From Candidatus Tectimicrobiota bacterium (GTDB lineage: Bacteria; Tectomicrobia; Entotheonellia; Entotheonellales; Entotheonellaceae), in assembly GCA_026005175.1 (NCBI GenBank), contig BPKO01000005.1, forward strand, positions 212,923 to 276,922: a stretch of DNA of 64,000 nucleotides, given 5' to 3'. Position numbers and translations under genes: made by a program. The notes beneath the pieces were generated by a model. That model did not search any database, had not been told where the DNA came from, and saw only the letters and a program-made list of their open reading frames with translations. The stretch's first letter is position 1. Every line of letters begins with the position of its first letter. Shown here piece by piece: positions 2,853 through 4,593 of this stretch.

Positions 2853-2881
2853 TTGACATCGGCGTGACTGCTACGTATATT
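2853..2881 (+). promoter_or_regulatory. Strong sigma70-type promoter of the 2.9-3.1 kb ncRNA
   Basis: A consensus TTGACA (2853-2858), a 17-nt spacer and TATATT (2876-2881). This is the best promoter match found in the window. It lies just after the SDR stop codon and points into a region without a convincing ORF. Confidence 0.75.
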
Positions 2882-2887
2882 GTTGAC

Positions 2888-3098
2888 CACCAAAGTGGGG
2901 TTGAGACCATGATTTACTTGCTGACGGAGTGCCTCAAATTTCCGTTAAAGGGCTCCCCTCGTCACCTGCCCCCAGACGAGGCGGAGCACGAGAAGCGGGG
3001 CTGGTGAGCGGGCCTCCAGCCCGTGGGCGTTTCCCGGCGTGGGACGCCGTAAGCAATGCGAGGGGATGCTGCAAAGGGCAGCATCCCCTTCTTTTTTG
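2888..3098 (+). ncRNA. Candidate stand-alone structured small RNA (about 210 nt)
   Basis: A consensus promoter at 2853-2881 and a textbook terminator ending at 3098 bracket about 210 nt with four consecutive perfect or near-perfect hairpins: 2922-2928/2941-2947 (7 pairs, one G-U), 2957-2963/2975-2981 (7 pairs), 2998-3004/3016-3022 (7 pairs) and 3035-3040/3044-3049 (6 pairs, GGG loop). I do not recognise a known family: no SRP, tmRNA, 6S or common riboswitch signature could be matched by eye. A leader role for the next gene (3163) is possible, but the terminator comes first and nothing pairs with it as an obvious anti-terminator. A 32-codon ORF (2909-3007) inside has no ribosome-binding site and is probably fortuitous. 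Confidence 0.55.
3062..3098 (+). terminator. Rho-independent terminator
   Basis: An 11-bp perfect stem, GGGGATGCTGC (3062-3072) with GCAGCATCCCC (3078-3088), a 5-nt loop, followed by TTCTTTTTT (3089-3097). Confidence 0.9.
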
Positions 3099-3162
3099 TC
3101 CCTTGTCACCGCCAGGCCGCTGTGCTACAGTCAAAGGCCCTTGACGCGCTTGTGACTGCTGC

Positions 3163-3879
3163 ATGAGGCCTGCTGACCCCGACACCCGCTGCCCGTTTGT
3201 GGCGACCGTTGCCGCCCTGCCGGCGGCCTGGCTTGCCGAGCGCCTGGCGGCCCCGGTGACGCTGGCGTGGACGCGCAATCGCGTGGTCATGGTCAGGGTG
3301 AGGGTTTTGGCCGGCGGGGGCTACCGGGTGCGGTTGCACGGCTGCTTTCGGCAGGCCCCGATGCCGGTCTGGCAGGCGCTGGTGGCGTACATCCGGCACG
3401 GCGACCGCACGGCGCGGGCCATCCTGCGGCGCTTCCTGCAAGGCGAGGGGGCGCTTGCTGGCCCGGAGCCGGCCGGATCGTGTCCAGCGCGTGGTGCGGC
3501 GCGCGGCCGCTACTTCGACCTCGAGGAGATCCTGCGCACCCTCAACCGCCGTTACTTTGGCAACCGCGTGCAGGCGCGCATCGTCTGGGGGCGGCGGCCG
3601 CCGCGGCGGCAGCGGGTGTCGATTCGACTAGGATCGTACTGTGCCCGCACCCGTCTCATTCGCATCCATCCCGCTCTGGACCAGGCCTTTGTGCCGCGCT
3701 ACGTGGTGGAGAGCGTGGTCTTTCACGAAATGCTGCACCAGCTCGTGCCGTGCCGCCGCGTGCGGGGCCGGCGATGCCTGCATCCGCCGCGCTTTCGCCA
3801 GTGGGAGCGGCAGTTCCCTGCCTATGCCCGCGCCGAGGCCTGGAAGCGACGCCACTTGACGCGGTTGCTCCGTAGCTGA
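3163..3879 (+). CDS. SprT-like zinc metallopeptidase-domain protein
   Basis: 238 residues. The C-terminal half (from about residue 115, DLEEILRTLNRRYF) matches the SprT-like fold, with a zinc-binding FHEMLHQLVP (HExxH, near residue 188) and a third-ligand region, LHPPRFRQWE, about 20 residues later. The N-terminal 110 residues are Arg/Ala-rich and unrecognised. Family members are small cytoplasmic predicted metallopeptidases. No good Shine-Dalgarno precedes the ATG, so the start is uncertain. It is followed 6 nt later by the queuosine-precursor transporter gene. Confidence 0.8.
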   Translation: MRPADPDTRCPFVATVAALPAAWLAERLAAPVTLAWTRNRVVMVRVRVLAGGGYRVRLHGCFRQAPMPVWQALVAYIRHGDRTARAILRRFLQGEGALAGPEPAGSCPARGAARGRYFDLEEILRTLNRRYFGNRVQARIVWGRRPPRRQRVSIRLGSYCARTRLIRIHPALDQAFVPRYVVESVVFHEMLHQLVPCRRVRGRRCLHPPRFRQWERQFPAYARAEAWKRRHLTRLLRS

Positions 3880-3885
3880 CGTGCC

Positions 3886-4593
3886 ATGCCCGCTCCCCAC
3901 CCGGCCACTCCCGCGACGCAAGCCCCTTCTTCGCCCTGGTTCGTGCTGCTGGTGGCCGTCTTTACCACCTGCCTCATCACCGCCAACATCGTGGCGGTCA
4001 AGCTGGTGGTCGTCTTCGGGCTGGTGACGCCGGCAGGCATCGTGGTCTTTCCGCTTAGCTACATTTGCGGCGACGTGCTCACCGAAGTCTACGGCTACCG
4101 GCAGGCGCGGCGGGTTATCTGGCTGGGCTTTTTTTGCAACCTCCTGGCCGTGCTGGCGATTTGGATTGGCCAAATTCTGCCCCCTGCCCCTTTCTGGGAA
4201 GGGCAGGCGGCGTACGTGCGCATTTTGGGCTATACGCCCCGGCTGCTGGTGGCTTCTTTCCTTGCTTACTTGGTGGGCGAGTTTGCCAATGCCTTTGTGC
4301 TGGCCAAAATGAAAATTGCCACCCGCGGGCGCTGGCTGTGGACGCGCACCATCGGCTCGACCCTGGTCGGGCAGGGGCTCGACTCCCTGGTGTTTATCAC
4401 CCTGGCCTTTGCCGGCACGCTTCCCGTGGCGGCGCTGCTTTCTACGGTGGTGACGCAGTGGCTGCTCAAAACGGCCTACGAAGCGGCAGCCACCCCCCTG
4501 ACGTACGGCGTGGTGGCGTGGCTCAAGCGGCGCGAGGGGCTCGACGTCTATGACGAGGGCACGCACTTCAGTCCCTTGCGCTGGCGCGACTAG
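3886..4593 (+). CDS. yhhQ: Queuosine precursor transporter (VUT/DUF165 family)
   Basis: A 235-residue polytopic membrane protein with about six hydrophobic segments. It shows the family signatures: N-terminal ANIVAVK, FPLSYICGDVLTEVYGY with its conserved acidic residues, and LVGEFANAFVLAKMK, followed by TRTIGSTLVGQGLDSLVF. Characterised members import 7-cyano-7-deazaguanine or a related precursor for queuosine tRNA modification. It follows the SprT-like gene by 6 nt, so the two are probably co-transcribed. Identification is firm; the exact substrate is inferred. Confidence 0.9.
   Translation: MPAPHPATPATQAPSSPWFVLLVAVFTTCLITANIVAVKLVVVFGLVTPAGIVVFPLSYICGDVLTEVYGYRQARRVIWLGFFCNLLAVLAIWIGQILPPAPFWEGQAAYVRILGYTPRLLVASFLAYLVGEFANAFVLAKMKIATRGRWLWTRTIGSTLVGQGLDSLVFITLAFAGTLPVAALLSTVVTQWLLKTAYEAAATPLTYGVVAWLKRREGLDVYDEGTHFSPLRWRD

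Follow-up and report, generated by a model that had tools for sequence, protein, structure and literature searches.

A short candidate orphan transcription unit flanked by SDR and SprT-like genes in an Entotheonella-like bacterium

Does the short region separating an SDR oxidoreductase gene (2047-2838) from a gene for a SprT-like metallopeptidase (3163-3879) encode a new stand-alone structured RNA, as had been proposed in an earlier note on this DNA, or a short gene of another kind? The region lies in a stretch of 64,000 nt (contig C5:212923-276922; here called the window, to which coordinates refer unless a contig is named) from a 4.0-Mb, 77%-complete genome of a little-studied phylum known for its natural-product symbionts. 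The best relatives of the SDR protein come from uncultured Candidatus Entotheonella MAGs (71% identity), which places the genome within or close to the Entotheonellaceae (Tectimicrobiota). The SprT-like gene is followed by one for a queuosine-precursor transporter (3886-4593). Three genomes of the same family and one more of the same class constituted the close comparison set.

In two sister-genus genomes, both Entotheonella MAGs, the order of the SDR and SprT-like genes is kept, and the slot between them is occupied by a gene for an S8 (subtilisin-like) peptidase of 428 aa (L011 and L012:5807-7093), which was identified as such from sequence motifs rather than through a family search. No copy of this peptidase gene was found in the window's genome at its 77% completeness, and inspection by eye, without alignment, revealed no similarity that would mark the feature as a remnant of it. 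With the slot filled by the peptidase gene, neither of the two syntenic relatives provides a counterpart of the stems in which covariation could be sought.

Promoter, terminator and the predicted transcript

The sigma-70-type promoter TTGACA-17-TATATT, to which the earlier note had drawn attention, is present at 2853-2881 on the + strand, matches at 11/12 positions and places the expected transcription start near 2888. When the 4-Mb genome was searched for TTGACA-N16-18-TATAWT, 16 sites were obtained versus 0 for the reversed control, and the other 15 are mostly located just 5' of genes or ORFs, of a tRNA cluster or of a gene leader. Both the count and the placement before genes and tRNAs thus indicate that promoters of this type are real in this genome, and the one at 2853-2881 is beyond chance and looks genuine.

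Two further regions with a near-perfect promoter may be mentioned in their own right. At L106:1500-1775, ~240 nt containing several inverted repeats separate the promoter from the next plausible ATG, and the region is a possible leader RNA; at L112:1200-1530 (- strand), no obvious gene is seen within 300 nt of the promoter, where an unannotated RNA or a small gene may be located. Neither of the two has an Rfam match.

At the other end of the feature, the intrinsic terminator with an 11-bp stem and a T tract described in the note is likewise confirmed (3060-3096, + strand): it comprises 11 perfect pairs at 3062-3088, or 13 together with flanking pairs (3060-3090), and the stem is followed by CTTTTTT (tail CTTTTTTG). 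Only 8 terminators in 464 kb have a perfect stem that is 9 or more pairs long, and in this sample the feature is the only close promoter-terminator pair, where, by our own arithmetic, ~0.1 such pairs would be expected by chance given 34 promoters and 8 terminators. The terminator is strong, beyond chance and looks genuine. The short region is enclosed by a promoter and a terminator of its own, as a structured stand-alone sRNA would be, and the two signals render a discrete, independently transcribed unit with a predicted transcript of ~210 nt (2888-3098, + strand) well supported.

It might be argued that no separate gene exists here, and that the terminator ends the mRNA of the SDR gene, whose stop lies at 2838 and downstream of which no other terminator was found before 3060; the promoter-like site would then be fortuitous or weak. 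That the site is among only 16 near-perfect ones in the genome (control 0), most of which precede genes, speaks against this explanation, which we consider improbable.

Hairpins, predicted fold and the search for relatives

All four hairpins that had suggested a structured RNA are present on the + strand, that is, three of 7 bp at 2922-2947, 2957-2981 and 2998-3022, and a fourth of 6 bp with a GGG loop at 3035-3049. As a mark of such an RNA, however, the series does not hold: (i) series of four or more such hairpins are contained in 22% of the window's 173-nt stretches, and 5% of dinucleotide shuffles reach four in series (P = 0.05), (ii) the serial structure is calculated at -63.4 kcal/mol versus -95.6 kcal/mol for the MFE structure, which pairs distant parts, so that the serial layout differs from the predicted fold, and (iii) the z-score of the fold, -2.8 for the full-length transcript, drops to -1.1 without the terminator, a value that 18% of the stretches sampled from the window match as well. 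The z-score of the full transcript therefore owes much to the terminator, and folding beyond composition, as would be expected for a structured sRNA after exclusion of the terminator, is not seen. The hairpin series is no more than chance in such GC-rich DNA, and a protein-titrating or antisense role, which had been proposed on the basis of that series, loses its footing along with it.

The earlier note had found no match to SRP, tmRNA, 6S or common riboswitches. Rfam, searched at both gathering and permissive thresholds, yielded no family; the best sub-threshold match was Pxr (RF01812) with 18.4 bits versus a gathering score of 80. No second copy was found in the genome itself, and a DNA comparison with 60 genomes, plasmids and phages detected no relatives. 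In the five genomes of the class, a covariance model derived from the feature alone, with little sensitivity to remote relatives, recovered only the feature itself. A search of the literature on Entotheonella small RNAs gave nothing relevant.

The structural argument thus fails because the hairpins are at chance level, the predicted fold differs, and there is neither an Rfam match nor a set of relatives for covariation. In DNA of such composition little can be concluded from 6-7 bp hairpins in a row, and it is the promoter and the terminator that count. What stands of the proposed stand-alone structured ncRNA is accordingly the discrete unit of ~210 nt, and what falls is the argument for its structure. 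A new structured RNA is not established by the hairpins, and the feature may simply encode a peptide of 32 residues.

The 32-codon reading frame

The feature had been described as containing no convincing ORF, a statement at variance with an ATG ORF of 32 codons with start-site features at 2909-3007 on the + strand (MIYLLTECLKFPLKGSPRHLPPDEAEHEKRGW), a candidate small protein gene with a Shine-Dalgarno-like site, AAAGTGGGGTTGA, upstream. The ORF spans hairpins 1 and 2 as well as the 5' arm of hairpin 3. Its ATG is located 27 nt past the -10 box, where ORFs at other such promoters begin ~26-62 nt past theirs. The Shine-Dalgarno-like duplex is calculated at -9.5 kcal/mol, a value which 6% of random sites reach, and the ATG lies in an open region (-4.5 kcal/mol, with structure weaker than at 95% of random sites), although AT-richness near the promoter would leave the start open even by itself. 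Only 5 of the 1156 ATGs in the window pass both the Shine-Dalgarno and the open-start cuts; with a looser cut, ~6 of the 15 passing ATGs are true gene starts as judged by us from the translations. Start codon, ribosome-binding site and accessible start, as looked for in a small-protein gene, hence occur together here, though they are not unique to true starts.

The coding character of the ORF is intermediate: its codon score of 0.16 per codon is above that of 93% of off-frame pieces and below that of 94% of in-frame pieces. In 386 genomes, plasmids, phages, Pfam and NCBIfam, the peptide has no homologue and yields only short chance matches; one to a Streptomyces plasmid was rejected, since it sits within a much longer gene. 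For an ORF chosen after the fact, the odds of being a true gene appear near even, raised by its position behind the promoter.

A tRNA-Sec gene is present elsewhere in the genome (C3:375030-375122, - strand; Rfam 76.5 bits, ARAGORN anticodon TCA), from which it appears that the lineage may use selenocysteine. Because of this gene, and because hairpin 4 lies at a SECIS-like distance, selenocysteine read-through of the TGA of the ORF was considered; it was rejected, as the extended frame does not look coding and 39% of all TGAs across the window are accompanied by a hairpin of this kind.

The ORF might also form part of an attenuator leader of the genes for the SprT-like protein and the queuosine-precursor transporter, with translation of the 32 codons perhaps in control. 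Here, TCCCCTCG (2953-2960) would pair with CGAGGGGA (3059-3066) and thereby break the terminator, which precedes the SprT-like gene by ~70 nt; a complement of 8 nt to the arm of the terminator is reached by 1.2% of shuffles (P = 0.012). Past the terminator, however, a second promoter-like site, TTGTCA-17-TACAGT (3103-3131, + strand; 9/12 positions, with TG before the second hexamer), is probably the promoter of the SprT-like gene (3163-3879), the ORF is devoid of a run of regulatory codons, no riboswitch is matched, and the two syntenic relatives have no such leader, a peptidase gene preceding their SprT-like gene. We thus regard attenuation as very unlikely.

A more serious contender is an untranslated, trans-acting sRNA of ~210 nt that would use the promoter and terminator described above and whose hairpins would provide base pairing or protein binding. 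The stand-alone promoter and terminator, the z-score of -2.8 for the full transcript and the lack of a homologue of the peptide are all in keeping with it, while the z-score of -1.1 without the terminator, a hairpin series equalled by 22% of stretches, the lack of both an Rfam family and a covariance-model relative, and an ORF with start-site features lying over the first two hairpins and the 5' arm of the third argue in the opposite direction. Such an sRNA is possible, and a small mRNA appears slightly more likely.

We therefore tentatively favor, at somewhat less than even confidence, an orphan, lineage-restricted short transcription unit that is most likely a small leadered mRNA. A strong housekeeping-type promoter would start transcription near 2888, and the terminator would end it near 3095; ribosomes would bind in the vicinity of AAAGUGGGGUUGA, the ORF at 2909-3007 would be translated into 32 aa, and the 90 nt left over would constitute a 3' UTR with the terminator at its end. 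The reading as a small mRNA draws on the promoter count (16 versus 0), the spacing of the start, the Shine-Dalgarno-like duplex of -9.5 kcal/mol, the open ATG, the codon score and the chance-level hairpins; it is weakened by a codon score below that of most true in-frame pieces, the lack of a homologue and the after-the-fact choice of the ORF, as well as by the outcome of the looser cut, under which roughly one in two of the passing ATGs does not start a gene. The peptide, being without homologue, may be a recently arisen orphan. That the Entotheonella-like bacterium instead harbors here a regulatory RNA that is specific to its lineage and represents a new family, possibly one of dual function combining the 32-aa peptide with the RNA, is rather unlikely.

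Comparison with known bacterial small genes

Overall, a short orphan transcription unit is a plausible verdict, judged from the DNA itself. If real, it would add one orphan short transcript, either a small mRNA or an sRNA, to the phylum; no general principle hangs on it. With stand-alone bacterial sRNAs such as Pxr (RF01812), the feature shares its own promoter, hairpins and an intrinsic terminator. It differs from them in that the hairpin series is not above chance and an ORF is present, and the match to Pxr covers only the 3' part of the feature which holds the terminator. Bacterial small-protein genes, that is, short monocistronic mRNAs with ORFs of fewer than 50 aa, provide the other comparison. 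Unlike these, the ORF described here lacks a homologue, exhibits only intermediate codon usage, and its translation is predicted; in common with them, the unit has its own promoter, a short 5' leader, a Shine-Dalgarno-like site, an ORF of 32 codons and an intrinsic terminator.
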